The notes beneath the pieces were generated by a model. That model was not told the DNA's origin. It saw only the letters and a list, made by a program, of their open reading frames with translations, and made no database searches. A stretch of 64,000 nucleotides of DNA. Source: Geoalkalibacter sp. GTDB lineage: Bacteria; Desulfobacterota; Desulfuromonadia; Desulfuromonadales; Geoalkalibacteraceae. The stretch spans positions 1 to 64,000 of the forward strand of contig NZ_JAUWAV010000018.1 in NCBI RefSeq assembly GCF_030605225.1, read 5' to 3'. Position 1 is the stretch's first letter. The number at the start of each line of letters is the position of its first letter. The translations under genes were made by a program, and so were the position numbers. This document shows positions 23,280-37,015 of this stretch, piece by piece.

Positions 23280-23295
23280 TGGCATCTGCGTTGCA
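23280..23295 (+). promoter_or_regulatory. Sigma54 (RpoN) promoter of the mycofactocin operon
   Basis: The sequence TGGCATCTGCGTTGCA has GG at 23281-23282 and GC at 23293-23294, exactly ten bases apart, matching the -24/-12 consensus TGGCAC-N5-TTGCA with one mismatch in the first block. The predicted start is near 23306, about 53 bases before mftA. Confidence 0.72.
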
Positions 23296-23358: not shown

Positions 23359-23466
23359 ATGGAAGTTGAACAGCTCAACCCCGAGGCATGCACGGAAGAA
23401 CCGGAAATTCTGGAGGAAATCCAGGTCGAAGAGTTGGCCATCGACGGCATCTGCGGAGTGTACTGA
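23359..23466 (+). CDS. mftA: Mycofactocin precursor peptide MftA
   Basis: A 35-residue peptide with an aaggagag ribosome site. The leader is acidic (EEPEILEEIQVEELA), and the C-terminus ends in IDGICGVY, the conserved core of MftA. In the known pathway MftC, helped by MftB, oxidatively decarboxylates and cyclises the terminal Val-Tyr, which becomes the redox-active part of mycofactocin. The most common core has Met where this one has Ile (IDGMCGVY). mftB starts one base after the stop codon. Identification is secure because of the C-terminus and the following mftB and mftC. Confidence 0.95.
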   Translation: MEVEQLNPEACTEEPEILEEIQVEELAIDGICGVY

Positions 23467-23467
23467 G

Positions 23468-23725
23468 ATGGCGGCGGCAGGCATTAAGCTGCATCCCGCC
23501 TGCCGCGTGAGGCAAGAGGGGTTCGGTCTCCTGTTTTATGACAGCAGGGGGCCGCGCCTTCTCTTCGCCGCAACCGGCAATCTGCTTCCCGCCGATTTTT
23601 TCGATGAGGTCCGTACCCCGGACGAACTGGTCCAGGGCCTTTCCAGCGGCCGGCAACACGCGTTGCGCAAGCTCGTGGCGCAACTTCTCGATAAAGGATT
23701 CCTGCGTGAGCAACCGATTTGTTGA
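23468..23725 (+). CDS. mftB: Mycofactocin peptide chaperone MftB
   Basis: An 85-residue PqqD-like RiPP recognition protein. It shows the MftB pattern of a basic LHPACRVRQEGFGLLFYDSRG strand region followed by LLFAATGN and a helical C-terminus. MftB binds the MftA leader and presents the peptide to MftC. The ATG at 23468 lies one base after the mftA stop; longer readings upstream overlap mftA out of frame and are not credible. The stop overlaps the start of mftC by 20 bases. Confidence 0.92.
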   Translation: MAAAGIKLHPACRVRQEGFGLLFYDSRGPRLLFAATGNLLPADFFDEVRTPDELVQGLSSGRQHALRKLVAQLLDKGFLREQPIC

Positions 23726-24746
23726 TATGGGCCTGCGTGCCCCGGTCAATCTGACCTGGGAAGTGACCTACGCGTGCAATCTGCGCTGCACCCACTGCCT
23801 TTCAGCCTCGGGCGAGCCGGCGGCGGATGAATTGAGCACCGCCGAGGCCCTCGACCTGGTGGAGCAGATGCACCGGGAGCGCGTCTTCCAGATCAATTTC
23901 GGCGGCGGCGAACCCTTCATGCGCCCCGACTTCGAAGAGATTCTTGCCGCGTGCCATGCGCGCGGCATCATGACCTGCATTTCCACCAACGGCACCCTGC
24001 TCGATGCCGCGTTGGTGGAGCGCCTCTCGCGCACCCGTCTGGTGGCCATCCAGGTGAGCCTCGACGGCGCCGAGAAGAGCACCTGCGAGGCGATCCGCGG
24101 CCAGGGCACCTACGATGACGCCCTCAAGGCTCTGCGCCTGCTGGCGAAAAGCTCCATCCCGACCAGCATCAATACGGTGCTCACCCGGCAGAATGCCCAG
24201 GAAATCCCCGCCATGTACGATCTCGCCGAGCAACTGGGTGTGACCCTGCGCGTCAGCCGTTTTCGCCCCTCGGGGCGCGGCAGCGACAACTGGGAATCCC
24301 TGCGCCCCACCGCTCAGCAGCTTCTGGACTTTTCCGCCTGGCTGGAGAGCCGCGGCGATGTGCGCACCGGCGACAGTTTCTTCTCCCTGACCGCCCAGGA
24401 GCGCCAGGGGCTGGGCCTCAACCTGTGCGGCGCGGCCAAGCTGACCTGCTGCGTCGGCCCCACCGGCAAGGTTTATCCCTGCGCTTTCATGCAGCTCGAC
24501 GCCTTCGAGGCCGGTTCGCTGCGCACGCGGAGCTTTCAGCACATCTGGCAGAGCGCGGAGATTTTCGCGTCCCTGCGCGGGCTGCGCATTCACAGCTGCG
24601 AGGACTGCCAGCGCTTCGACCAGTGTCACGGCGGCTGTCCGGCGGTGGCCTATCACCTCAAGAACGACATCGAAGGCGGGGATCCCGAGTGCCTGGAGCG
24701 CTGCGTGACCTCCATCGCCGAGGAAAACAAGACGGCGGCGGCCTGA
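23706..24746 (+). CDS. mftC: Mycofactocin radical SAM maturase MftC
   Basis: A 346-residue radical SAM/SPASM enzyme. The SAM-cluster cysteines are C24, C28 and C31 (ACNLRCTHC), followed by FGGGEPF. The C-terminal SPASM region carries LCGAAKLTCCVG, VYPCAF, CEDCQRFDQCHGGCPA and a final C. MftC performs the two-step modification of the Val-Tyr terminus of MftA. I chose the GTG at 23706, which has an aaagga site seven bases upstream inside mftB; the ATG at 23727, directly after the mftB stop, is the alternative. The adjacent MftA and MftB make the assignment firm. Confidence 0.94.
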   Translation: MSNRFVDMGLRAPVNLTWEVTYACNLRCTHCLSASGEPAADELSTAEALDLVEQMHRERVFQINFGGGEPFMRPDFEEILAACHARGIMTCISTNGTLLDAALVERLSRTRLVAIQVSLDGAEKSTCEAIRGQGTYDDALKALRLLAKSSIPTSINTVLTRQNAQEIPAMYDLAEQLGVTLRVSRFRPSGRGSDNWESLRPTAQQLLDFSAWLESRGDVRTGDSFFSLTAQERQGLGLNLCGAAKLTCCVGPTGKVYPCAFMQLDAFEAGSLRTRSFQHIWQSAEIFASLRGLRIHSCEDCQRFDQCHGGCPAVAYHLKNDIEGGDPECLERCVTSIAEENKTAAA

Positions 24747-24750
24747 ATAA

Positions 24751-24789
24751 CCCCCTCTCCCCAGCCCTCTCCCACGAGGGGAGAGGGGG
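24751..24789 (+). repeat. Perfect 12-bp inverted repeat between mftC and the OYE gene
   Basis: CCCCCTCTCCCC at 24751-24762 pairs perfectly with its complement at 24778-24789 around a 15-base loop. Elements of this composition are widespread intergenic repeats in proteobacteria; a related but degenerate sequence lies at about 37037-37075. In the transcript it would form a very stable hairpin and could adjust downstream mRNA levels. Confidence 0.7.
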
Positions 24790-24820
24790 AGCGTGAAACA
24801 AATCAAGGAGATCCGACACC

Positions 24821-26782
24821 ATGATGTTCGATTACCTGTTCTCGCCCATCAAACTCGGCCAGGTGGAGCTGAAAAACCGCATCTCCTTTCAGCCGCACCT
24901 GACCAATTTCGCCGAGCACTGCATGCCCAGCGAGCGCCATATGTATTATTGGGGCGAGCGGGCCAAGGGCGGCGCGGGCCTGATCATCACCGAAGAGATG
25001 AGCGTGCACCCCACGGACACCGCCTACGAAAAACTGGTGGAGGCCTTTCACGCCGAAGTCATTCCGGGCTTTCGCAAGATCACCGACTACGTGCATCAGT
25101 ACGACGCAAAAATCTTCTGCCAGCTCAACCACAACGGCCAGCAGTGCGACGGCAGCATCTCGCGTCTGCCGGTGTGGGCGCCAAGCCCCATGCCCGACGT
25201 GCTGTTTCGCGAGACGCCCAAGGAGATGGAGCCCGAGGACATCGAGGAGGTGTGCCGCTACTTCGCCAAGAGCGCGGTGCATGTGCGCGAAGGTGGGTTC
25301 GACGGCGTCGAGTTGCAATTCGGCCATTCGAGTCTGGCGCGTCAGTTTCTTTCGCCGCTGACCAACTTCCGATCGGATGAATTCGGCGGCAGCCTGGAAA
25401 ACCGCATGCGCGCGCCCCTCATGTTCATCGAGGCGGTGCGCAAGGCGGTGGGCAAGGACTTCACCCTCGGCATCCGCCTGTGCGCCGACGAGATGATACC
25501 CGGCGGCCTGGACCTGGGCCAGATCCAGGAGATCGGCGCCCGCTTCGAGGCCTCGGGCCTCATCGACTTCATGGATCTCTCCATCGCCACCTTCTACAAC
25601 CTCTACCTGGTGGAAGGTTCCATGCACACGCCGCTGGGCTACACCATCCCCCTGGCGGCGGGCATGCGCGAAAAGCTCAAGCTGCCGGTGTTCTGCACCG
25701 GGCGCATCAACGATCCGGTCATGGCCGAGAAGGTGCTGGCCAACGGCCAGGCCGACATGATCGGCATGTGCCGCGCCCTGATCTGCGACCCCTTCCTGCC
25801 GAAAAAAGCTCAGGAGGGCCGGCTGGCGGACATCCGCTACTGCGTCGGCGACAACCAGGGCTGCATCGGCCGCATGGGCATCAACCGCACCCTGGGCTGC
25901 ATTCAGAACCCCGCGGTGGGCCTCGAAAAAGAATGGGGCGAGGGCACCCTCAAGCCCGCGCCGGTGAAGAAGAAAGTCATGGTGGTGGGCGGCGGTCCCG
26001 CCGGCCTGTGGGCGGCGAAAATGGCGGGTCGGCGCGGCCACCGGGTCGATCTCTACGATCGCAACGACAACCTCGGCGGTCAGGTGCTGACCGCCATGAA
26101 GGGTGCCGGACGCGACGAGTTCGGCGTGATCATCCGCAACGAGAAGGACCAGGTCGACAAGGCCGGGGTCAAAGTACACCTGCAGCAGGAACTGACCCCT
26201 GAGCAGATTCTCAAGGAAAACCCCGACGTCGTGGTGGTCGCCACCGGCAGCCAACCCAAAAGCCGGCCCGTGGGCGGCGCCGACGGCCCGGCGGTGTTCA
26301 ACGTCTGGCAGGTGCTCGACGGAAAGCCCGAGTTGGGCGAGAAGATCTGCCTCATCGACTACGACGGCCACCACCGCGCCACCTCCACCGCCGAGCGCCT
26401 TGCCGATCTAGGCAAGACGGTGCACATCATCACCTCGAGTCTGTTCGTCGGCGCCGAGCTTGGCCCCACCCAGGATCTCTACCTGACCCGTCAGCGCCTG
26501 CTGCAAAAGGGCGTGACCTTCACCCCCGACATCGCGGTGATGGAGGTCGGCGGCGAAGCGGGCGCCAAGGAAATCAAGGGGTTCAACGTCTATTCCAACC
26601 AGTGGCAGACCTGGGGTCCCTTTGACTCGGTGGTGCTGGCCATGGGCCAGCAGGTCGACGCCGATCTGTATTTCGCCCTCAAGGGCAAGGTCAAGGAACT
26701 CTACCGCATCGGCGACTGCGTGGCGCCGCGCAAGGTCGACATGGCCATCTGGGAAGGCCACAAGACCGGGAGGTCCATCTGA
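24821..26782 (+). CDS. Mycofactocin-system FadH/OYE-family flavin oxidoreductase
   Basis: A 653-residue two-module flavoenzyme like 2,4-dienoyl-CoA reductase or trimethylamine dehydrogenase. Residues 1-340 form an Old Yellow Enzyme barrel, which usually binds FMN. A cysteine cluster for [4Fe-4S] follows (CVGDNQGCIGRMG, then GCIQNP). Residues about 388-653 form a pyridine-nucleotide-disulfide-type domain with GGGPAGLWAAKMAG. It lies in the mycofactocin operon and starts 74 bases after mftC, with an aaggag site. Homologues in such clusters are thought to carry electrons between mycofactocin-dependent dehydrogenases and ETF. Its stop overlaps the ETF alpha start. Confidence 0.88.
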   Translation: MMFDYLFSPIKLGQVELKNRISFQPHLTNFAEHCMPSERHMYYWGERAKGGAGLIITEEMSVHPTDTAYEKLVEAFHAEVIPGFRKITDYVHQYDAKIFCQLNHNGQQCDGSISRLPVWAPSPMPDVLFRETPKEMEPEDIEEVCRYFAKSAVHVREGGFDGVELQFGHSSLARQFLSPLTNFRSDEFGGSLENRMRAPLMFIEAVRKAVGKDFTLGIRLCADEMIPGGLDLGQIQEIGARFEASGLIDFMDLSIATFYNLYLVEGSMHTPLGYTIPLAAGMREKLKLPVFCTGRINDPVMAEKVLANGQADMIGMCRALICDPFLPKKAQEGRLADIRYCVGDNQGCIGRMGINRTLGCIQNPAVGLEKEWGEGTLKPAPVKKKVMVVGGGPAGLWAAKMAGRRGHRVDLYDRNDNLGGQVLTAMKGAGRDEFGVIIRNEKDQVDKAGVKVHLQQELTPEQILKENPDVVVVATGSQPKSRPVGGADGPAVFNVWQVLDGKPELGEKICLIDYDGHHRATSTAERLADLGKTVHIITSSLFVGAELGPTQDLYLTRQRLLQKGVTFTPDIAVMEVGGEAGAKEIKGFNVYSNQWQTWGPFDSVVLAMGQQVDADLYFALKGKVKELYRIGDCVAPRKVDMAIWEGHKTGRSI

Positions 26783-27810
26783 TGGCCTTCGGCGGATCTC
26801 TCCAACCCTTCGCGCCGGGGCCGGTGCTGGCGGTGCTTGAGCTGCCCGGCGGCGAACTCGAGGAAACCGGCAAGGGCCTGCTCAGCGAGGCGTCGCGCCT
26901 GGCGAAAAAGCTTGACGTCTCCTGGTCGGCTCTGTGCTTTGCCGGCTTTGCCGCCGAGGTGCCGGAGCAGTGCGGCGCCTATGGCCTGGCGCGCCTGCTG
27001 GTGCTGCCGAGCAGCGCGGCGGTGGCCGATGCCCCCGATCTGCAAGCGGCGCTCATCGCCCAGGCGGCGCGCGCCCAGGGCGCCGGCGTGGTGCTGCTGC
27101 CGCACAACGATCTCGGTCATGCCCTGGCGCCCCTGCTGGCGGCGCAGCTGGGCGGCCCCCTCTTCACCGAGGCCGTCGCCACGGCGCGCGACGACCAGGG
27201 GCTCAAGCTCATGCGCCGCGCCCTGGGCAAGCGCGTGCAGGAAGCCTGGTTCTGGAACGGCCAGGGCACCCTGGTGTTGACGGTCCATCCGCAGATTCTC
27301 AGCGCGGCGCTGTTGCCCTCCATGAAGCGCGTGACGCCCGAGCAGATCGAACTCGCCGCCCAGGAAAACCAAACCCCGGCCAAAACCCGCATCATCGAGC
27401 GCATCCCGCCCGACCCGCAGACCGTCGACGTGTCCGAAGCCGAAGTGATCTTCAGCGCCGGGCTGGGCTGCAATCAGGCCTGCTTCGAGCAGTTGCGCGA
27501 GCTCTGCCGGCTGCTCAATGTTTCCCTGGGCGTCACCCGACCGGTGTACGACCTGGGCTGGACGGGCTTTGAGCGCATGGTCGGGCAGACCGGAAAAACC
27601 GTGGCGCCGCGCCTCTATGTGGCGTTGGGCATCTCGGGATCCATGCACCACATCGGCGGCATCAAGGACTCGCGCCGCATCATCAGCCTCAACATCGATC
27701 CCAAGGTGCCGATCTTCCCCAATTCGGATGAAGGCTTCGTCGCCGACCTCAACGCGGTCATGCCGCTGTTGCTGGAGAAGGTCAGAGCCGCTGCCGGAGG
27801 TGCCGCATGA
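26782..27810 (+). CDS. etfA: Electron transfer flavoprotein alpha subunit
   Basis: A 342-residue ETF alpha. The C-terminal FAD-binding domain is well conserved: FSAGLGCNQ, VYDLGWTGFERMVGQTGKTV, ALGISGSMHHIGGI and SLNIDPKVPIFP. The N-terminal domain is more diverged. ETF accepts electrons from flavin dehydrogenases and passes them to an ETF:quinone oxidoreductase. Unusually, alpha and beta subunit genes are not adjacent here: fixC- and fixX-like genes lie between them. It overlaps both neighbours by one to four bases, so the subunits are probably translated together. Confidence 0.92.
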   Translation: MAFGGSLQPFAPGPVLAVLELPGGELEETGKGLLSEASRLAKKLDVSWSALCFAGFAAEVPEQCGAYGLARLLVLPSSAAVADAPDLQAALIAQAARAQGAGVVLLPHNDLGHALAPLLAAQLGGPLFTEAVATARDDQGLKLMRRALGKRVQEAWFWNGQGTLVLTVHPQILSAALLPSMKRVTPEQIELAAQENQTPAKTRIIERIPPDPQTVDVSEAEVIFSAGLGCNQACFEQLRELCRLLNVSLGVTRPVYDLGWTGFERMVGQTGKTVAPRLYVALGISGSMHHIGGIKDSRRIISLNIDPKVPIFPNSDEGFVADLNAVMPLLLEKVRAAAGGAA

Positions 27811-29105
27811 AACGCTCTTTCGATGCCATCGTCATCGGCGCCGGACCGGCCGGGTCCTCGGCGGCCCTGACCCTGGCCAAGGCCGGCCTGGATGTCGCGC
27901 TGCTCGAGCGCGGCAGCTATCCCGGCGAAAAGAACATGTTCGGCGGCGTGCTGCACCGTCTCACCGCCCTCGAGGAGCATTTCCCCGAGTTCTGGAATCA
28001 GGCGCCCCTGGAACGGCACATCGTCAAGAAATCCCTGACGTTTCTAACCGAGGAATCGTCCTTCAACGTCAATTTCGACACTCAGGCTTCGGACCGCACC
28101 CCCTACAACGGCTACACCGTCTACCGCCCGCGCTTCGACCGCTGGCTCGCCGACGAGGCGGTCAAGGCCGGCGCCAAGCTCTATTGCGGCTGCACGGTGG
28201 AGGATCTGCTCAAGGACGGCGCGCGGATCACCGGCGTCAAGGTGATGCGCGACGGCGGCGAGATCAAGGCGCCGGTGGTGATCGCCGCCGACGGCGTACT
28301 CTCTTTCACCGCCAAAAAGGCCGGCCTGCGTCGCCCCGCCTTCGATCCGGCGCAGATGGCGGTGGGCGTCAAGGCCCTCATCGACCTGCCCAAGGAGGTC
28401 ATCGACGACCGCTTCGGCCTGGTGCGCGACCAGGGCGCTTCCAACGAACTGGTCGGCTGCACCCAGGGCGTGCGCGGCGGCGGCTTTCTCTACACCAACT
28501 ACGACAGCCTCTCCATCGGGCTGGTCATGCACCTGGGCAGCCTGAGCGAAAGCGGCAAGACCCCCTACGACCTGCTCAACGCCTTCATGGAGCAGCCGCA
28601 GATGGCCAAACTGCTCAAGGGCGGCAAGCTCCTCGAATACTCGGCGCACCTGGTGCCCGAGGGCGGTTACGACATGATTCCCGAAACCCACGGCGACGGC
28701 ATTCTCGTGGCGGGCGACGCCGCGGCCCTGTGCATCGTCACCGGCCTCAACCTCGAAGGCATCAACCTTGCCACCCACTCAGGCATGCTCGCCGGCAAGG
28801 CGGCCATCGAGGCGCACCAGCGCAAGGACTTCTCGAAGCAGAGCCTATCCTGCTACCGACGCATGCTGGAGAACAGCTACGTCATGCAGGATCTCAAGCT
28901 CTACCGGCGCACCCCGCACATGCTGCACAACGATCGCATCTACACCCAATACCCCGAGTTGCTGTGCGGCATCATGGATGAAATCTATCGCATCGACGGC
29001 ACCCCCAAGGACACCATGACCAAGCTGCTGATGCGCGCCGTCAAGGAAAAAATCGGTCTCAAGAATATGCTCGCCGATGTCTATTCGGGATGGAGAGCCC
29101 TATGA
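27807..29105 (+). CDS. fixC: FixC-like ETF:quinone oxidoreductase flavoprotein
   Basis: A 432-residue FAD enzyme. The N-terminal dinucleotide fold is IVIGAGPAGSSAALTLAKAG, and the C-terminal FAD motif is GILVAGDAAALCIVTGLNLEGIN. FixC with FixX forms the membrane-associated ETF:quinone oxidoreductase that delivers ETF electrons to the quinone pool. Some FixABCX complexes bifurcate electrons to ferredoxin instead. It overlaps ETF alpha and FixX by four bases each (ATGA), so production is strictly coupled. Confidence 0.92.
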   Translation: MKRSFDAIVIGAGPAGSSAALTLAKAGLDVALLERGSYPGEKNMFGGVLHRLTALEEHFPEFWNQAPLERHIVKKSLTFLTEESSFNVNFDTQASDRTPYNGYTVYRPRFDRWLADEAVKAGAKLYCGCTVEDLLKDGARITGVKVMRDGGEIKAPVVIAADGVLSFTAKKAGLRRPAFDPAQMAVGVKALIDLPKEVIDDRFGLVRDQGASNELVGCTQGVRGGGFLYTNYDSLSIGLVMHLGSLSESGKTPYDLLNAFMEQPQMAKLLKGGKLLEYSAHLVPEGGYDMIPETHGDGILVAGDAAALCIVTGLNLEGINLATHSGMLAGKAAIEAHQRKDFSKQSLSCYRRMLENSYVMQDLKLYRRTPHMLHNDRIYTQYPELLCGIMDEIYRIDGTPKDTMTKLLMRAVKEKIGLKNMLADVYSGWRAL

Positions 29106-29386
29106 AAATCAACGTCGACGAGATCTTCGACGTCACCAGCTTTAATATCGACCGCGAGCCGCACATCGTGCTCGACACCCAGGTGTGCGTGGGCTGCGAC
29201 CAGCGCGGCTGCACCAATTCCTGCCCGGCGCGCTGCTACACCTGGTCGGAGGAAGACCAGAAAATGACCTTCGTCTACGACGGCTGCCTGGAATGCGGCA
29301 CCTGTTACGTGGTCTGCCGGCAGAACGCCTTCACGCGCTGGAGCTACCCCCGGGGCGGCTTCGGCGTGTCCTTCCGCATGACCTGA
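29102..29386 (+). CDS. fixX: FixX-like ferredoxin
   Basis: A 94-residue ferredoxin-like protein. Cysteines occur as VCVGCDQRGCTNSCPARCY and CLECGTCYVVC, enough for one or two [4Fe-4S] clusters. The GxFGVxFRM end is typical of FixX proteins that dock on FixC. The ATG at 29102 overlaps fixC. It relays electrons between FixC flavin and quinone, or to another acceptor if the complex bifurcates. Confidence 0.9.
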   Translation: MKINVDEIFDVTSFNIDREPHIVLDTQVCVGCDQRGCTNSCPARCYTWSEEDQKMTFVYDGCLECGTCYVVCRQNAFTRWSYPRGGFGVSFRMT

Positions 29387-29398
29387 GGAGACAGGCCC

Positions 29399-30295
29399 AT
29401 GGCTGAGAACAAACTCAACATCCTGGTCATTCTGCGCGAATGCAGCGATCCCCGACCACCGGCGCGGCTCATGGCCAAGGGCGCGGGCATCCGCGAGCGC
29501 GGCCTGCGCCGCCTGACCAACCCCGCCGACCTGGAGGCCCTGGAGCATGCCCTGGAATTGCGCGACGCGGGGGTGGCGCGGGTGACGGCCGTGGCGGTCG
29601 GCCCCAAGCCTCTTGAAGACAGCCTGCGTCTGGCACTCGCCATGGGCGCCGAGCGCGCCGTCCGCATCTGGAACGGCGTGCTGGCCGGCGGCGACGCCGT
29701 CGCCGGGGCGCATCTCTGGCAGCGGGTGTTTGCCATTCTGCGCCCCGATCTGGTTCTCACCGGCAACCGCCTGCTCGACGGCGGCAGCGATCCGGCGCCG
29801 GCCCTGGCGGCAGCCCGGCTCAACATGGGCTGCGTCAGCGCGGCCCTGTCCCTGCTGGTCAAGGACAAGCAGGCAGAGATCCTGCGCAAGGGCGATCGCG
29901 GCGCACGGCAGAAAATCGCGGCTCTCCTGCCGTGCGCCATTCTCTGCGAGGCCGGTTTCAAGGCGCCGCGCTATCCCGCCCTGGAGGCGGTGGTGGCCGC
30001 CGCCACCCAGCCGGTGGAAGCCTGGGGGCTGGAGGATCTGAGCCTGCCCGAATGGGAAGTGGGCGCCCTCGGCGCGGCCCTCGATCAGGGCGAATTCGCC
30101 ACGCCGCGCCCCGATCCCCTGCGCTCCACCACGCCCGATCCCAGCCTGCCGGCCTTCGAGCGCATCCTGGCGCTGCTCTCCGGCGGCATCCAACCGCGCG
30201 AGGGGAAAATGCATTTCCTGCCGCCCGAGGAGGTGGTCGAGAGCCTCATGGCGATTTTCCGCAGCGAAGGATTGCTGCCCGAGGCGAAGGCATGA
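29399..30295 (+). CDS. etfB: Electron transfer flavoprotein beta subunit
   Basis: A 298-residue ETF beta-like protein. It keeps the LNILVILRECSDPR start, NPADLEALEHALELRD and VTAVAVGPKPLEDSLRLALAMGAERAV, where the family binds AMP or a second FAD. A typical DLVLTGNRLLDGG segment follows. It is about 40 residues longer than housekeeping beta subunits because of its C-terminal tail. The partner alpha subunit is encoded two genes upstream. It overlaps mftF by four bases. Confidence 0.88.
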   Translation: MAENKLNILVILRECSDPRPPARLMAKGAGIRERGLRRLTNPADLEALEHALELRDAGVARVTAVAVGPKPLEDSLRLALAMGAERAVRIWNGVLAGGDAVAGAHLWQRVFAILRPDLVLTGNRLLDGGSDPAPALAAARLNMGCVSAALSLLVKDKQAEILRKGDRGARQKIAALLPCAILCEAGFKAPRYPALEAVVAAATQPVEAWGLEDLSLPEWEVGALGAALDQGEFATPRPDPLRSTTPDPSLPAFERILALLSGGIQPREGKMHFLPPEEVVESLMAIFRSEGLLPEAKA

Positions 30296-31707
30296 GGTAT
30301 CGTCTGCTGCCCGGCGTGCGCATCGAGGAATCGCCCTCGGGGCTGTTTCTGACGGCCGAGCGCCCCTACCGGGTGCTGCGCATCAACCAGCGCCTCGCCG
30401 AACTGGCTCGCCGAGGGCGCGAGACGGCGGTCGAGGCGGTCGGTCCCGGAGAAGGCAAGATCTGGGAAACCCTCGTCACCCAGGGACTCGCGCGGCGCGA
30501 GGAGGAGGAAACGGCGGCCGAGATGACTTTGCGCCCGCGCGTCAGCGTGGTGATTCCCGTGCTGGATCGCGCCGAGGATCTGCGCAAGTGCCTGGAGTCG
30601 CTGCAGCAGCTCGATTACCCCCAGGAGTGCCTGGAAATCATCGTGGTCGATGACGGCAGCCGCGACGCCTCGCCCCAGGTCGCCCTGGAGTTCGGCGCGC
30701 GCCTGGTGCCCAGCGGCGGCAGCGGCCGCGGACCGGCCGCCGCGCGCAATCGCGGCGTGGCCGTCGCCACCGGCGAGATTCTCGCCTTCATCGACTCGGA
30801 CTGCACCGCCTCGCCCGAATGGCTCAACGAGCTGCTGCCGAGCTTTGCCGAACCGGATGTGGCGGCGGTGGGCGGCTGGGTGGACGGCATGAACAGCCGC
30901 CGCGCCCTGGATCGCTACGAACGGGTCATGTCGAGCCTCAATCTGGGTGGACGCGAGCGCAACGGCAAGGACGGCAACGACACCTTTTACCTGCCCAGTT
31001 GCAACCTGCTGGTGCGGCGCACGGCCTTCGCCATCGTCGAGGGCTTTCGCGAGGATCTGCACGTGGGCGAGGATGTGGATCTGACCTGGCGGCTGCGCGA
31101 CTGCGCCTATCGCATCATCTACCTGCCTCGGGGTCGCGTGTGCCACAACCACCGCAGCCGCCTGTGGCCCTTCATGAAGCGGCGCTTTGACTACGGCACC
31201 TCGGAAGGCATTTTGCAGTCCCTGCATCCCCAGCGGCGCAAGAAGATGCTGTTGCCGCCCGGCCTGTGCGTGGCCCTGTTGCTGCTGATGATCGGCCTGG
31301 CCACCCTCAAGCCCGCGGTGCTTGGTGCCTGCGGCGCGGTTCTGCTGCTCGACGGCCTGGCCACCCACGCCAAGCTCAGGCGCCGCGGTCTGCGTCAGGG
31401 ATGGATGGCCGTGTTCAAGGCGCGCCTGCGCGCATTTTCCAGTCTGGCCTATTATCTGGGGTATCATCTGCTACGCTATTACCTGTTGCCGATCATTCTG
31501 CTTGGGATTGCGCTGCCTCAGGCGGGACTGGTGTTTCTGCTGCTCGGCCTGTGGGTGCTCGGGGTCGATTACCGTCTGCGCCGGCCCGAGCTTTCGCCGC
31601 CAGGTTTCGCCCTGTTTTATCTGCTGGAACAGCTTTCCTATGGCTGCGGCGTGTTCGTCGGCTGCTGGCGGCAGAAAAATTTCGCCAGTTACGTCTTTGA
31701 ATTCTGA
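30292..31707 (+). CDS. mftF: Mycofactocin glycosyltransferase MftF
   Basis: A 471-residue family 2 glycosyltransferase. Residues 1-75 resemble a PqqD/MftB-like domain (RLLPGVRIEE, YRVLRINQRLAEL), a feature of MftF. The GT-A domain spans about 82-330: VSVVIPVLDR, the nucleotide site VVDDGSRD, the metal site DSDCTASPEW, and EDVDLTWRL. Three or so C-terminal membrane helices (about 320-440) anchor it. MftF adds beta-1,4-glucose units to premycofactocin. The ATG at 30292 overlaps etfB. Confidence 0.9.
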   Translation: MRYRLLPGVRIEESPSGLFLTAERPYRVLRINQRLAELARRGRETAVEAVGPGEGKIWETLVTQGLARREEEETAAEMTLRPRVSVVIPVLDRAEDLRKCLESLQQLDYPQECLEIIVVDDGSRDASPQVALEFGARLVPSGGSGRGPAAARNRGVAVATGEILAFIDSDCTASPEWLNELLPSFAEPDVAAVGGWVDGMNSRRALDRYERVMSSLNLGGRERNGKDGNDTFYLPSCNLLVRRTAFAIVEGFREDLHVGEDVDLTWRLRDCAYRIIYLPRGRVCHNHRSRLWPFMKRRFDYGTSEGILQSLHPQRRKKMLLPPGLCVALLLLMIGLATLKPAVLGACGAVLLLDGLATHAKLRRRGLRQGWMAVFKARLRAFSSLAYYLGYHLLRYYLLPIILLGIALPQAGLVFLLLGLWVLGVDYRLRRPELSPPGFALFYLLEQLSYGCGVFVGCWRQKNFASYVFEF

Positions 31708-31712
31708 AGTCC

Positions 31713-31810
31713 CCGTTCCTCCGAGCCGCTCGACCTAAAGGGGATGGCCCCCAGGGTTGTCGGCCGATGGGTTGCGCTGGAAACGGCGCAGCCTCCCTTT
31801 CGGAAAGGAG
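31713..31810 (+). ncRNA. Moco/Tuco-type riboswitch (Moco RNA motif)
   Basis: The leader before the aldehyde oxidoreductase carries the order of conserved blocks I associate with the Moco RNA motif: CCGAGCC at 31721-31727, CCTAAAGGGG from 31734, an 8-bp stem GGTTGCGC/GCGCAGCC at 31770-31777 and 31786-31793 with a TGGAAACG loop, then CTCCC and a terminal CTTTCGGAAAG hairpin running into GGAAAGGAG. The class senses molybdenum or tungsten cofactor. There is no T-run, so control is probably at translation. The position directly before a pterin-cofactor enzyme supports the call. Confidence 0.75.
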
Positions 31811-31820
31811 ATCGTCCCTC

Positions 31821-31886
31821 ATGGAAAACTTGCATCACCAAGAAAGGGAGAAGCACGCATGGACAAGATTTATCGCGTCAACATGA
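31821..31886 (+). CDS. Possible 21-codon leader ORF between riboswitch and AOR gene
   Basis: The strong GGAAAGGAG at the riboswitch end lies ten bases before an ATG at 31821 that opens a 21-codon frame ending at 31886, inside the start of the AOR gene in another frame. The AOR gene has its own agggag site. The small frame could couple AOR translation to the riboswitch or be accidental; nothing in its sequence looks like a functional peptide. Confidence 0.35.
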   Translation: MENLHHQEREKHAWTRFIAST

Positions 31887-33589
31887 CCACTCTGACCACC
31901 TCCGTGGACGCCTGCCCCGCCGCCTGGGCGGGTCTGGGCGGCCGCGGCCTGACCTCGGCCATCGTCGCCGCCGAAGTGCCCCCCGCCTGTCATCCCCTGG
32001 GGCCCAACAACAAGCTGGTGTTTGCTCCGGGTCTTTTGACCGGAACGCCCGCGGCCAACTCGGGACGGCTCTCGGCCGGCGCCAAGAGCCCCCTGACCGG
32101 CACCATCAAGGAGAGCAACGCCGGGGGCAGCGCGGCGCAGATGTTCGCGCGCCTGGGCATCAAGGCGCTCATCATCGAGGGCCAGCCCAAGGATGATGCC
32201 TGGTACAAGCTGGCGCTCTCCAAGGATGGGGTGAAGATCGAGAAGGAAACCGCGCTCATCGGCAAGGGCAACTTCGCCGTGGTCGAGGCGGTGCAGGCGC
32301 AAAAGGGCAAGAAGGTGGGCGTCATGACCATCGGCCCGGCGGGCGAGTGGCGCATGAAGGCGGCCAACATCTCGGTCATGGATCCCGACGGCAAGCTGCG
32401 CAGCCACGGCCGCGGGGGTCTTGGCGCGGTGATGGGTTCGAAAAAGATCAAGTACATCACGGTGGATCCCGAGGGCGCCCCGGGCGTGACCCTGGCCGAT
32501 CCCGAGAAGTTCAAAACCGCGGCGCGCACCTTCGCCAAGGCGCTGCTCGATCATCCGGTCTCGGGCGAGGGCCTGCCCACCTACGGCACCAACATCCTGA
32601 TCAACGTGCTCAACGAGGCGGGCGGGCTGCCGACCAAGAACTTTCGCTACGGCCAGTTCGAGGGCCACGACAAGATCTCGGGCGAGACCATGCACGACAT
32701 CATCACCGAGCGCGGCGGCAAGACCAAGCACGGCTGCCATGCGGGCTGCATCATCCAGTGCTCCCAGGAGTACGTGGACAAATCCGGCGTCTATGTCACC
32801 TCGGGCTTTGAGTACGAGACCATCTGGGGCTTTGGCGCCAACTGCTGCATCGACAATCTCGATCACATCGCCGAGGCCGATCATCTGATGGACGACATCG
32901 GCATCGACTCCATCGAGTCGGCGGTCATCATGGGCGTGGCCATGGAGGCGGGCATCGTGCCCTGGGGCGATGGCCCGGGGGTCAATCGCCTGCTGCGCGA
33001 GGAGATCGGCAAGGGCACGCCCCTGGGGCGCATCCTCGGCAACGGTGCGGCGGAGGTAGGCGTGGCCTACGGCCTGACGCGCGTGCCGGTGGTCAAGGGC
33101 CAGGGGATCCCGGCCTACGATCCGCGCTCGGTCAAGGGCATCGGCATCACCTATGCGACCTCCACCATGGGCGCCGATCACACCGCGGGCTATTCGGTGG
33201 CGACCAACATCCTGAAAGTCGGCGGCGATGTGGATCCGCTCAAGAAAGAGGGTCAGGTGGAGCTCTCGCGCAATCTGCAGATCGCCACCGCGGCGGTGGA
33301 TTCCACCGGTCTGTGCCTGTTTGTCGCCTTCCCGGTGCTCGATATTCCCGAGGCGCTCACCGCCATCGTCGAGATGATCAACGCGCGCTTTGGTCTCAAG
33401 CTCACCGGCGACGACGTGACGGCGCTGGGCGTCTCGATCCTCAAGACCGAGCACGCCTTCAACCAGGCCGCGGGCTTCACCAACGCCCATGATCGGCTGC
33501 CCGAGTTCTTCGTCAGCGAGCCGGTGCCCCCGCACAACGCCGTGTGGGACTTCACCGACGCTGAAATTGACGAATTCTGGAATTTCTAG
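31859..33589 (+). CDS. aor: Aldehyde:ferredoxin oxidoreductase (tungsten/pterin enzyme)
   Basis: A 576-residue AOR-family enzyme. The N-terminal domain holds GLGGRGLTS and GPAGEWRMKAANISV, and the pterin-binding region includes GRGGLGAVMGSKKIK. The [4Fe-4S] cysteines occur as CHAGCIIQC plus a late C in STGLCLF. A further conserved block is KGIGITYATSTMGADHTAGY. The reaction is aldehyde to carboxylic acid with ferredoxin, using a bis-pterin tungsten (or molybdenum) centre. Downstream MoaD-like, ThiF-like and tungstate transport genes fit a tungsten enzyme. The start at 31859 follows an agggag site; the longer upstream frame runs through the riboswitch. Confidence 0.93.
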   Translation: MDKIYRVNMTTLTTSVDACPAAWAGLGGRGLTSAIVAAEVPPACHPLGPNNKLVFAPGLLTGTPAANSGRLSAGAKSPLTGTIKESNAGGSAAQMFARLGIKALIIEGQPKDDAWYKLALSKDGVKIEKETALIGKGNFAVVEAVQAQKGKKVGVMTIGPAGEWRMKAANISVMDPDGKLRSHGRGGLGAVMGSKKIKYITVDPEGAPGVTLADPEKFKTAARTFAKALLDHPVSGEGLPTYGTNILINVLNEAGGLPTKNFRYGQFEGHDKISGETMHDIITERGGKTKHGCHAGCIIQCSQEYVDKSGVYVTSGFEYETIWGFGANCCIDNLDHIAEADHLMDDIGIDSIESAVIMGVAMEAGIVPWGDGPGVNRLLREEIGKGTPLGRILGNGAAEVGVAYGLTRVPVVKGQGIPAYDPRSVKGIGITYATSTMGADHTAGYSVATNILKVGGDVDPLKKEGQVELSRNLQIATAAVDSTGLCLFVAFPVLDIPEALTAIVEMINARFGLKLTGDDVTALGVSILKTEHAFNQAAGFTNAHDRLPEFFVSEPVPPHNAVWDFTDAEIDEFWNF

Positions 33590-33640
33590 GATGATGAAAG
33601 AAACGCCGGTGAGCTAAGCCCCGGCCCTGCTCGACCCCAT

Positions 33641-33673
33641 ACGCCCGCCGGTCGCTCTCTGGCCGGCGGGCGT
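33641..33673 (+). terminator. Hairpin after the AOR gene
   Basis: Eleven perfect base pairs (33641-33651 with 33663-33673) enclose an 11-base loop, 51 bases after the AOR stop. Only a short TTCC follows, so it may be a partial terminator or a processing signal ahead of the moaD-like gene. Confidence 0.5.
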
Positions 33674-33704
33674 TTCCTTCCCCTGGACTCCGAGGAGATC
33701 CCCT

Positions 33705-33929
33705 ATGAAGGTTCTCGTCAAACTCTTCGCCACCTTCCGCAACGACCGTTTCAAGCAAGCCGAAAAGGAGTTGCCCGCGGGCACCAGCATCCGCCAGGTG
33801 GTGGCGCAGTTGGAAATCGCCGAGGAAGCCCTCGGCATGGTCATGCTCAACGGCCGCCACGTGCCCCTCGACACCGAACTGCACGAGGGCGACACCCTGT
33901 CCCTGTTTCCCCTGGTGGGAGGTGGCTGA
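33705..33929 (+). CDS. MoaD/ThiS-family sulfur carrier
   Basis: A 74-residue beta-grasp protein (MKVLVKLFATFR, SIRQVVAQL, LNGRHVPLDTEL, HEGDTLSLFPLVGGG) that ends in the di-glycine needed for adenylation and thiocarboxylate formation. MoaD-type carriers deliver the dithiolene sulfur of molybdopterin or tungstopterin. It is followed one base later by its likely activating enzyme. Its place behind AOR suggests a pathway branch dedicated to that enzyme. Confidence 0.88.
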   Translation: MKVLVKLFATFRNDRFKQAEKELPAGTSIRQVVAQLEIAEEALGMVMLNGRHVPLDTELHEGDTLSLFPLVGGG

Positions 33930-33930
33930 G

Positions 33931-34749
33931 ATGAAGGAACTGCTCGAATTCGCACGCGCGCGGGCCCAAGGCGATCTGGTGTCCTGGGACACGCAGGAAG
34001 AGGCGGCCAGGCGCTTCGGACTGTCCCTGGCGCAGGTGGAAGCCCTGCTGCTTGAGGCGCAGTTGTTGCCCGCGCGCTATCAGCGCAACCGCCAGGGCAT
34101 CAGCACCGCCCAGCAGCTTCGGCTGCATCGCGCCCGCGTGGCGGTCATCGGCTGCGGCGGACTGGGCGGCTATGTGATCGAGGAACTGGCGCGGCTCGGC
34201 GTGGGCACCATCGTCGCCATCGATCCCGACGTGTTCGAGGAGCACAACCTCAACCGCCAGTTGCTCAGCGCCCCGGCGCGCCTCGGCCAGGACAAGACGG
34301 AAGCAGCGCTGGCGCGGGTCGCCGAGATCAACCCGGCGGTGACCCTGGTTGCGCTGAAGCAGGCCCTGGGCCGGGACAACGGCGCCGAATTGCTCCGGGG
34401 CTGCGCTCTCGCCATCGACGCCCTCGACAGCATCCGCGTGCGCCTGGAGCTGGCCGAAGTCTGCAATCGCCTGGATATCCCCATGGTGCACGGCGCCATC
34501 GCCGGCTGGTACGGCCAGGTCTTCACCCAGTTTCCCGGCGAGGACTACTTGCAGCGCATCTACGCCCACGGCGTCGACGGCAAGGGCGCGGAAAAGACCC
34601 TCGGCAATCCCTCCTTCACCCCGGCTCTGGTGGCGAGCCTCGAAGTCACCGAGGCGTGCAAGCTGCTCATCGGCGTGGGCGAGCCCCTGCGCGGCCGCAA
34701 GCTGCTCATCGACCTGCTCGACATGGATCTGCACGTCGTGCCGCTGTGA
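33931..34749 (+). CDS. ThiF/HesA/MoeB-family adenylyltransferase
   Basis: A 272-residue E1-like enzyme. A short helical N-terminal extension precedes the ThiF domain: VAVIGCGGLGGYVIEELA for ATP binding, DPDVFEEHNLNRQLL, and AIDALDSIRVR. It should adenylate the C-terminal glycine of the preceding carrier. It has no CxxC pairs for the structural zinc found in most MoeB and ThiF proteins and no obvious catalytic cysteine loop. I chose ATG 33931, one base after the moaD stop; a GTG at 33922 is the alternative. A large palindromic element follows. Confidence 0.85.
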   Translation: MKELLEFARARAQGDLVSWDTQEEAARRFGLSLAQVEALLLEAQLLPARYQRNRQGISTAQQLRLHRARVAVIGCGGLGGYVIEELARLGVGTIVAIDPDVFEEHNLNRQLLSAPARLGQDKTEAALARVAEINPAVTLVALKQALGRDNGAELLRGCALAIDALDSIRVRLELAEVCNRLDIPMVHGAIAGWYGQVFTQFPGEDYLQRIYAHGVDGKGAEKTLGNPSFTPALVASLEVTEACKLLIGVGEPLRGRKLLIDLLDMDLHVVPL

Positions 34750-34756
34750 AATCATA

Positions 34757-34850
34757 GGACGCGGATGAACGCGGAAAAGGCGGGATCAAGGCGGATCAAT
34801 CTAAATAGCTGATGGTTTTGAATCCGCCTTGATCCTGAAAATCCGCGTCC
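34757..34850. repeat. 94-bp palindromic intergenic element
   Basis: Two nested perfect inverted repeats: an outer 10-bp pair (34757-34766 with 34841-34850) and an inner 14-bp pair (34783-34796 with 34822-34835). The central loop is AT-rich. The layout is that of a REP/MITE-like dispersed palindrome. It sits between the ThiF gene and tupB and would form a long hairpin in the transcript. Confidence 0.7.
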
Positions 34851-34973
34851 CCCCGCCCTTGCATTTTCCTCTCGCACACTTCACCGGTTGCCGCAAGAGG
34901 GCCGCCCGTGGTATTCAAGACATGGATTTCTCATGGGTTTTTATCCGTCAACTCTCTTTCCCGATGCTCTGCC

Positions 34974-35656
34974 GTGGATTTTCTCCTTGAAGCCCTGCGC
35001 GCCGCCCTGGTGCTGATCATCCATCTGGACCGCGAGGTGATGGTCATCGCCTGGACCTCGCTGTGGACCTCGGCGACGGCCATCCTGCTCGCCACCCTGA
35101 TCGCGGCGCCCATCGGGCTGACGGTCGGTGCGGTGCCCTTTCCCGGCCGACGCGGCATCCGCCTGCTGCTCAACACCTTCATGGCCCTGCCCACGGTGGT
35201 CATCGGTCTGTTTCTCTTTGCGCTGCTCAGCCGTCAGGGGCCCCTGGGGCCCTTGGGCCTGCTGTTCACGCCCTGGGCCATGATCCTCGGCCAGACGGTG
35301 CTGGCCCTGCCCATCGTCGCCCACTACATGACCACCGCCGTGGCCGGCGCCGATGCGCGCATCATCCCCACCCTGCAAACCCTCGGCGCCCATCCCATGC
35401 AAGCGGCCTGGCATATCCTGCGCGAGGTGCGCTACGGCATGCTCGCCGCCGTGGTCGCCGGTTTCGGCCGGGTGGTCGCCGAAGTGGGCGCGGCCATGAT
35501 GCTCGGCGGCAACATCCGCAATTCGACCCGCACCCTGACCACCGCCATCGCCCTGGAAACCAGCAAGGGCGATTTCGCCTTCGCCATGGCCCTGGGAATC
35601 ATCCTCATGACGCTGGCACTGGGGGTCAATTTCCTGCTTCACACCTTGCAGCAGAG

Positions 35657-35660
<4 letters not shown>
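34974..35660 (+). CDS. tupB: Tungstate ABC transporter permease TupB
   Basis: A roughly 228-residue permease with five to six membrane helices and the binding-protein-dependent transport signature around TLGAHPMQAAWHILREVRYGMLA. The GGNIRNSTRTLTTAIALETSKG segment is characteristic of the TupB/WtpB-like group. I chose GTG 34974 because the protein then begins like other TupB proteins, but it lacks a clear ribosome site; the GTG at 34908 (aagaggg upstream) gives 22 more residues. It overlaps tupC by four bases. Tungstate fits the neighbouring AOR. The binding protein TupA is not beside it. Confidence 0.85.
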
Positions 35661-36358
<698 letters not shown>

Positions 36359-36382: not shown

Positions 36383-36411
36383 TTGACGACACTATCCCTT
36401 CGAGATAATAT
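36383..36411 (+). promoter_or_regulatory. higBA promoter placing the start at the higB ATG
   Basis: TTGACG (36383-36388) and TAATAT (36406-36411) are 17 bases apart. The predicted start falls at about 36418, next to the ATG at 36419, and no Shine-Dalgarno sequence is present, so the transcript is probably leaderless. Confidence 0.65.
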
Positions 36412-36418
36412 CATTTCC

Positions 36419-36700
36419 ATGATCAAGACCTTCAAATGCAAAGAGACCGAGAAGCTCTTTCATGGCCGGTTTTCGGCAAAATTGCCGCAGTCGATCCAAA
36501 AAACGGCCGTGATGAAACTCAAAATTCTCAACGCCGCCAGCCTTCTGGAAACCCTTCGTATCCCGCCCTCGAATCATCTTGAGGCGTTACGCGGCGCCAG
36601 AGAAGGACAATACAGCATACGCATCAACAAGCAATGGAGGATCTGTTTCGTCTGGCAGGGCAGCGATGCCTTTGACGTCGAGATCATCGACTATCATTGA
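36419..36700 (+). CDS. higB: HigB/RelE-family toxin
   Basis: A 93-residue plasmid-maintenance-killer type toxin. It has the family blocks MIKTFKCKETEKLFHG, PPSNHLEALRGAREGQYSIRINKQWRICF and the final VEIIDYH, where His and Arg serve in ribosome-dependent mRNA cleavage. The antitoxin gene follows nine bases later; the toxin-first order is typical of HigBA. It seems to be leaderless. Confidence 0.93.
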   Translation: MIKTFKCKETEKLFHGRFSAKLPQSIQKTAVMKLKILNAASLLETLRIPPSNHLEALRGAREGQYSIRINKQWRICFVWQGSDAFDVEIIDYH

Positions 36701-36709
36701 GAGGACCTT

Positions 36710-37015
36710 ATGGCAAAGCGTGATTTCCCCCCCATTCATCCCGGCGAGATTCTTCTTGCGGAATTCCTTGAACCCTTGGGCGTCAGCCAGTATCGACTGG
36801 CCAAGGATATCGGTGTAACGCCAAGACGCATCAACGAAATCGTTCACGGCCGCCGCGCCATCACGGCCGATACAGCACTGCGTCTCGGTCGGTTTTTCAA
36901 CATGGAAGCGCAGTTCTGGCTCAACCTGCAGTCGCATTACGATATGGAAGTGGCCTTGGAGGAGTTGGGCGATCGACTGGAAAAAGAAGTGCATCCGCTC
37001 TCGCGGGCGGCGTGA
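36710..37015 (+). CDS. higA: HigA antitoxin (XRE family)
   Basis: A 101-residue helix-turn-helix protein beginning PPIHPGEILLAEFLEPLGVSQ, the usual HigA/VapI opening, with the recognition helix around VTPRRINEIVHGRRAI. It neutralises HigB and represses the shared promoter. A gagga ribosome site precedes the ATG at 36710. The C-terminal region is slightly longer than minimal antitoxins and acidic. Confidence 0.93.
   Translation: MAKRDFPPIHPGEILLAEFLEPLGVSQYRLAKDIGVTPRRINEIVHGRRAITADTALRLGRFFNMEAQFWLNLQSHYDMEVALEELGDRLEKEVHPLSRAA

Follow-up and report, generated by a model that had tools for sequence, protein, structure and literature searches.

The window, a stretch of 64 kb, carries on its forward strand a mycofactocin series of mftA, mftB, mftC, an OYE-family gene, EtfA-like, FixC-like and EtfB-like genes and mftF (NCBIfam; 23359–31707), extending from the mftA start at 23359 to the end of the mftF stop codon at 31707. 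It is followed on the same strand by a gene for an AOR-family aldehyde oxidoreductase of 576 aa (Pfam AFOR_N and AFOR_C; 31859–33589), with its ATG at 31859, the ATG at 31821 belonging to another frame. The question raised by this locus is what the leader between mftF and the AOR gene does. The reading favoured here, with a probability of about 0.6, is that the leader forms a tungsten-cofactor (Tuco) riboswitch which lacks the P3 stem, lies inside an operon and gates AOR translation as an ON switch.

The AOR leader contains a Moco RNA

Scanning both strands of the 64 kb with RF01055 (Rfam, Moco RNA) gave a match at 31707–31826 on the forward strand with a score of 62.8 bits (E 1e-12) against a gathering score of 36 bits, and in the Rfam scan of the window RF01055 was the sole family above its gathering score. 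The AOR gene begins 32 nt past this match, and a covariance search found no further RF01055 match in the 3.7 Mb genome. A second covariance model, built from relatives on 59 rows with the window leader included among them, scored the leader at 104.3 bits, with the runner-up in the window at 14.2. The mftF–AOR leader is a genuine member of the Moco RNA family, the family itself being already known.

In a search of 58 genomes, the window's own and those of relatives no more distant than the same order, the family was found in 35, with 77 matches, 74 of which were retrieved (three omitted) and 59 aligned, the window included. In this 59-row alignment 88.7% of the cells of the drawn structure are paired, 19 of 31 pairs have changed on both sides, the covariation score is 0.287, and none of 500 shuffles scored as high on any of five covariation measures. 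The shuffle test can be inflated by kinship, which the slid-column controls retain, and with partners slid by 1–3 columns pairing drops to 36–52%. Compensatory change preserves the set of P1, P2, P4 and P5, although P5 itself is too invariant to show any, and the invariant core bases of the alignment are all intact in the window aptamer. The original prediction that the AOR gene is preceded by a Moco/Tuco-type riboswitch was to stand or fall with a covariance search of the leader and with compensatory stem changes in relatives; the search is significant and such changes are found, so that the prediction is borne out.

The landmarks named in that prediction are present at the positions claimed for them, with CCGAGCC at 31721–31727, CCTAAAGGGG at 31734–31743, GGTTGCGC (31770–31777) paired with GCGCAGCC (31786–31793) and GGAAAGGAG at 31802–31810, all on the forward strand. 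In the RF01055 alignment P1 consists of four good pairs (31719–31722 with 31807–31810), closed by CUCC and the last four bases of GGAAAGGAG, and the family's two outermost pairs fail to form in the window. P2 (31725–31764), supported by covariation, pairs 31725–31728 with 31761–31764 and 31731–31735 with 31755–31759 and ends in a GGGG/CCCC tip (31740–31743 with 31748–31751). What had been described as an 8-bp stem does pair but is really P4, a covarying helix of 11 pairs (31769–31779 with 31784–31794) capped by a GAAA tetraloop at 31780–31783. A terminal hairpin said to merge with the core is not a real hairpin, since P5, which belongs to the covarying set, comprises only 2 bp (31795–31796 with 31802–31803). 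The canonical tetraloop receptor has UAUGG as its 3′ half; in the P2 of the window the 5′ half of the receptor, CCUAAA, is present and the 3′ half reads CAGGG.

The cofactor that is sensed

In the sections of Regulski et al. (2008; PMC2408646) drawn on here, P3 divides the Moco RNA motif into molybdenum and tungsten versions, being missing from 58 of 176 Moco RNAs, with tungsten-cofactor genes in 17 of 19 organisms that carry P3-lacking RNAs. In the window P3 is absent, the RF01055 alignment with the P3 positions deleted leaving a P2–P4 junction of 4 nt (31765–31768) with no space for such a stem. The same 4-nt junction was found in 103 of the 112 matches measured, out of 117 that remained from 125 family matches after removal of duplicates. 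The GGGG/CCCC hairpin had been put forward as bearing on the molybdenum or tungsten subgroup, but it makes up the variable P2 tip, and nothing was found that ties it to either metal; assignment by this hairpin was rejected in favour of P3, the published discriminator (PMC2408646).

The gene content of the locus points in the same direction. The nearest solved chains to the AOR protein are 9mqx, 1aor, 9g7j and 8c0z, the last named tungsten-containing, and the AOR family has four matches in the genome. Downstream of the AOR gene on the same strand lie a strong hairpin and possible terminator (33641–33673; −31.3 kcal/mol over 33630–33690, z −4.95), a moaD-like gene of the ThiS family (33705–33929), a moeB-like gene of the ThiF family (33931–34749) and genes for a TupB-like permease and a TupC-like ATPase (34974–36358), both under the NCBIfam TupB/TupC cut-offs. 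A TupA relative with 64% identity to a TupA of the tup type is encoded elsewhere in the genome, and the stretch around it has no Rfam match. Because P3 is absent, the gene served encodes an AOR, moaD-, moeB- and tungstate-transporter-like genes follow and a TupA relative is present, the window RNA is most likely of the tungsten (Tuco) type, as judged from sequence and context. It is improbable that the RNA senses the molybdenum cofactor, or both cofactors alike. That reading can draw on the available text of two papers, in which the exact metabolite of the Moco riboswitch had not been identified as of 2024 (PMC10845959) and the P3 rule has exceptions (PMC2408646), and is countered by the lack of P3, the AOR-family enzyme and the Tup-like transporter genes.

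Two side observations concern the tup end of this region. Between moeB and tupB there is a short palindromic element (34758–34870) with perfect 14-bp arms (34783–34796 and 34822–34835), at a position where another genome of the genus (G001) has several genes and a second AOR cassette. Directly past tupC lies a HigB/HigA-like toxin–antitoxin pair (36383–37015).

Candidate control of AOR translation

The ribosome-binding site (RBS) of the AOR gene, GAAAGGGAG (31842–31850, + strand), is the exact 9-bp complement of an anti-RBS segment, CUCCCUUUC (31793–31801, + strand), which overlaps P4 at its last two pairs and contains the whole 5′ strand of P5. In the unconstrained minimum-energy fold the two segments are paired with each other while P1 and P5 do not form, and the anti-RBS helix and P4/P5 exclude each other. 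In the proposed mechanism the absence of cofactor would leave CUCCCUUUC free to pair with GAAAGGGAG, hiding the AOR RBS, and binding of the cofactor would hold P1, P4 and P5 together, locking CUCCCUUUC away and freeing the RBS, with the outcome that AOR would be made when its own cofactor is available.

The energetics of the window itself are less clear-cut. Forcing the aptamer costs 4.4 kcal/mol, which would need to be paid by ligand binding and the tetraloop contact. With the aptamer forced, the mean unpaired probability of the RBS core rises from 0.21 to 0.53, but the opening energy of a longer RBS stretch falls only from 6.0 to 5.4 kcal/mol, a gain of 0.6 kcal/mol that speaks against a strong switch in the window.

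For comparison, 72 RNA-bearing AOR leaders were gathered, the sources being relatives and 80 named AOR loci, 62 of these leaders belonging to the AOR class of the window (class 1) and seven and three to two others; 71 were folded, one (L134) being left out for want of a P1 anchor. With the aptamer forced, the unpaired probability of the RBS core rose by at least 0.2 in 38 of 61 class-1 leaders and fell as much in none, and the opening energy was lower by at least 1 kcal/mol in 44 of 61 and higher as much in none. The effect of the aptamer is part generic and part specific, because control RBSs grafted from moaD, moeB and tupC also rise, in 22, 21 and 19 of 61 leaders (the tupC pool being three sequences only), and native sites do so more often (37 of 61 on the same measure). 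CCUCCC is anti-SD-like by itself, and part of the pairing effect is therefore generic.

The RBS sequences themselves are distinctive, with GGGAG, the pairing partner of the aptamer's CUCCC, in 55 of 61 class-1 AOR sites as against 5 of 76 moaD, 6 of 38 moeB and none of 18 tupC sites. Among the named AOR loci GGGAG occurs in 32 of 37 with the RNA and 13 of 40 without it, or in 33 of 38 and 12 of 39 if one locus (L119) is moved to the RNA-bearing group, a comparison that kinship confounds in either form. Co-variation between the flanks of the core helix gives p 0.038 on 26 distinct combinations, with kinship still in this value and eight of the 61 leaders omitted for want of CUCCC or GGGAG. When RBSs were swapped among AOR loci the native site paired better in 35 of 61 cases, with a mean duplex energy of −11.9 against −11.4; exchange of sites among AOR loci thus alters pairing little, which counts against the ON reading. 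In the second AOR class the site was freed in one of seven leaders, with opening easier in two and harder in two, and the leaders of this class do not show the freed-RBS pattern. Taken over the 61 class-1 leaders, folding and comparison suggest that the folded aptamer frees the AOR RBS and would act as a translational ON switch.

The precedent for the opposite output is the moaA RNA of E. coli, with which the window RNA shares P1, P2, P4, P5, the GAAA loop and the conserved core, differing from it in the absence of P3 and in serving AOR rather than moaA. The E. coli RNA is an OFF switch whose RBS lies inside P1, as described in the available text of PMC2408646, whereas the window RNA is predicted to be an ON switch and its RBS stands 32 nt past the core and is complementary to P4/P5. 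An RBS within P1 as in E. coli was rejected for the AOR leaders, since the AOR start lies 35–56 nt beyond the aptamer core in the 68 in which this distance was measured. A cofactor-dependent OFF switch, in which the folded aptamer represses AOR, could take another form in the window, for example with translation entering via GGAAAGGAG and a short ORF (31821–31886) that is coupled to AOR. In keeping with this, GGAAAGGAG stands 10 nt before the ATG at 31821, and the mft-linked leaders of three genomes (G001, G002 and G003) have a comparable ORF start; that start is, however, seen in the mftF-following leaders of this genus, with a length that differs among them, and the site in the core is not that of AOR. 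The AOR site became clearly less open with the aptamer forced in none of 61 class-1 leaders, and the OFF reading is considered unlikely. The short ORF itself has 21 codons, begins 10 nt past the aptamer core and overlaps the AOR start out of frame.

The P3-lacking Tuco RNAs treated in the same part of PMC2408646 share with the window RNA the absence of P3 and a context of tungsten enzymes and transporters, but are described there as acting through terminators or repression, an anti-RBS ON platform not being among the mechanisms described. Among the papers listed on Moco/Tuco riboswitches, judged mostly by their titles and opening lines, no ON-type Tuco switch was found, and the visible part of one further paper (PMC7653027) deals with an engineered riboswitch and has no bearing on the window RNA. 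The aptamer is ordinary in its identity; what is new is the plausible anti-RBS ON platform, for which no description was found. An ON-type tungsten version in front of a measurable enzyme would, if the reading is true, offer an assay with a signal that rises with the cofactor.

Operon structure and genomic context

Upstream of the mycofactocin series a sigma54-like −24/−12 site, TGGCATCTGCGTTGCA (23280–23295, + strand), has one mismatch to TGGCACN5TTGCW and ends 63 nt before mftA. Its 16 bases are identical in two genomes of the same genus with more variable surroundings. With up to two mismatches the pattern occurs 21 times in the window against 35.7 expected, so that there is no enrichment, and the one-mismatch site before mftA was the only sigma54-like site counted. 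The suggestion that the RNA splits the locus into a sigma54-controlled part and a cofactor-sensing part holds for the sigma54-like site in front of mftA, but two transcription units are unlikely, a scan for sigma70-type sites having found none between mftF and the RNA. Because P1 starts 11 nt beyond the mftF stop and no such site lies there, the RNA probably puts AOR under additional translational control within the same transcript, which the AOR gene would share with the mycofactocin genes, rather than splitting the locus.

Of the 62 class-1 loci, 39 have an iron alcohol dehydrogenase upstream of the RNA and four have mftF there, all four in this genus, contig edges making the upstream gene unjudgeable in three; mftF also precedes three of the seven class-2 AORs. 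The ON copies would be situated in operons, followed by AOR and preceded by a gene whose product does without the tungsten cofactor (mftF or iron alcohol dehydrogenase), a placement that would fit a switch gating the tungsten enzyme alone and not the preceding gene. Since an aldehyde-oxidising enzyme lies on one side of the RNA and mftF, or in more cases an iron alcohol dehydrogenase, on the other, tungsten supply would, if the reading is true, be tied to alcohol metabolism. No paper came up in literature searches on mycofactocin together with either aldehyde oxidoreductase and tungsten or aldehyde ferredoxin oxidoreductase.

In G001, of the same genus, two AOR genes (L071, 4422–6152 and 14241–15971) share 97% DNA identity and have clearly different leader RNAs, one following mftF and the other an iron alcohol dehydrogenase; of this pair the window genome retains only the mftF-linked copy. 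The contigs of G002 and G003 end within AOR, as a repeat would cause. That a second RNA–AOR cassette was lost from the window genome merely by assembly is not supported, the dehydrogenase orthologue being absent from the genome sequence, in which the best three matches had 38, 45 and 42% identity, and the window's own leader being the sole match there for the second G001 leader. The presence in G001 of two such AOR copies, each with its own RNA, together with the shortness of P1 in mft-linked copies, would be in keeping with a dead duplicate, in which the mftF-linked RNA and AOR were copied from a dehydrogenase–RNA–AOR cassette and no longer work. This is very unlikely in view of the intact invariant core bases of the window aptamer, its exact 9-bp anti-RBS match and the finding that in G013, G014 and G016 the AOR behind an mftF-linked RNA is of a different class.

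Copies in front of other genes

The P3-lacking aptamer is common to the AOR leaders and to the tup-type Moco RNAs of the same order, a terminator being typical only of the tup-type and other non-AOR copies. The terminator scan, which covered 42 of 45 non-AOR matches, found one in 33 of the 42 as against one of 72 AOR leaders, with L119 counted as non-AOR although an AOR gene stands beyond its 213-nt linker with an inserted repeat. In 30 of the 33 the terminator was stronger than −14 kcal/mol, the three weak ones having −1.6, −2.2 and −10.2 kcal/mol. That the window RNA is a transcription attenuator like the tup-type copies might be supposed from these 33 of 42 non-AOR matches, but no hairpin with a T run was found on scanning the window leader and terminators are all but lacking from AOR leaders (1/72); transcription attenuation at AOR was rejected on both grounds and is scarcely credible. 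At L119 5669–6001 the Moco RNA is separated from AOR by a repeat of about 180 nt, and aptamer and RBS lie more than 200 nt apart.

Of the 33 non-AOR terminators, 26 have a 5′ arm able to pair with the aptamer's GGAAAGGAG over at least six bases, and an OFF output is therefore implied for these copies. With the aptamer forced, the terminator became likelier by at least 0.2 in only 7 of 33, and less likely in none, so that OFF for the non-AOR copies rests on complementarity and not on computed equilibrium. A TupB- or TupC-like gene begins at most 1 kb downstream in 17 of the 74 matches. Translational ON control of AOR by a folded aptamer, as favoured above, would combine with these copies to give two opposite outputs of the same aptamer in the same bacteria, with tungstate uptake, under transcriptional OFF control, halted when the cofactor is plentiful. 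The chances of this dual arrangement are put at about even; if it is true, AOR would be expected to go up and tup down with one aptamer. Both types of platform do occur in one organism, according to the sections of PMC2408646 cited here.

Downstream of moeB at L046 and L055 (G029:C8 and G040:C44) there are two Moco RNAs some 400 nt from each other; a third Moco RNA precedes the AOR of that region, and tup genes lie further along. L061 and L062 (G049:C468 and C365) are two near-identical Moco RNA copies with low scores of about 40 bits; they lack the GGAAAGG core and are perhaps relics.
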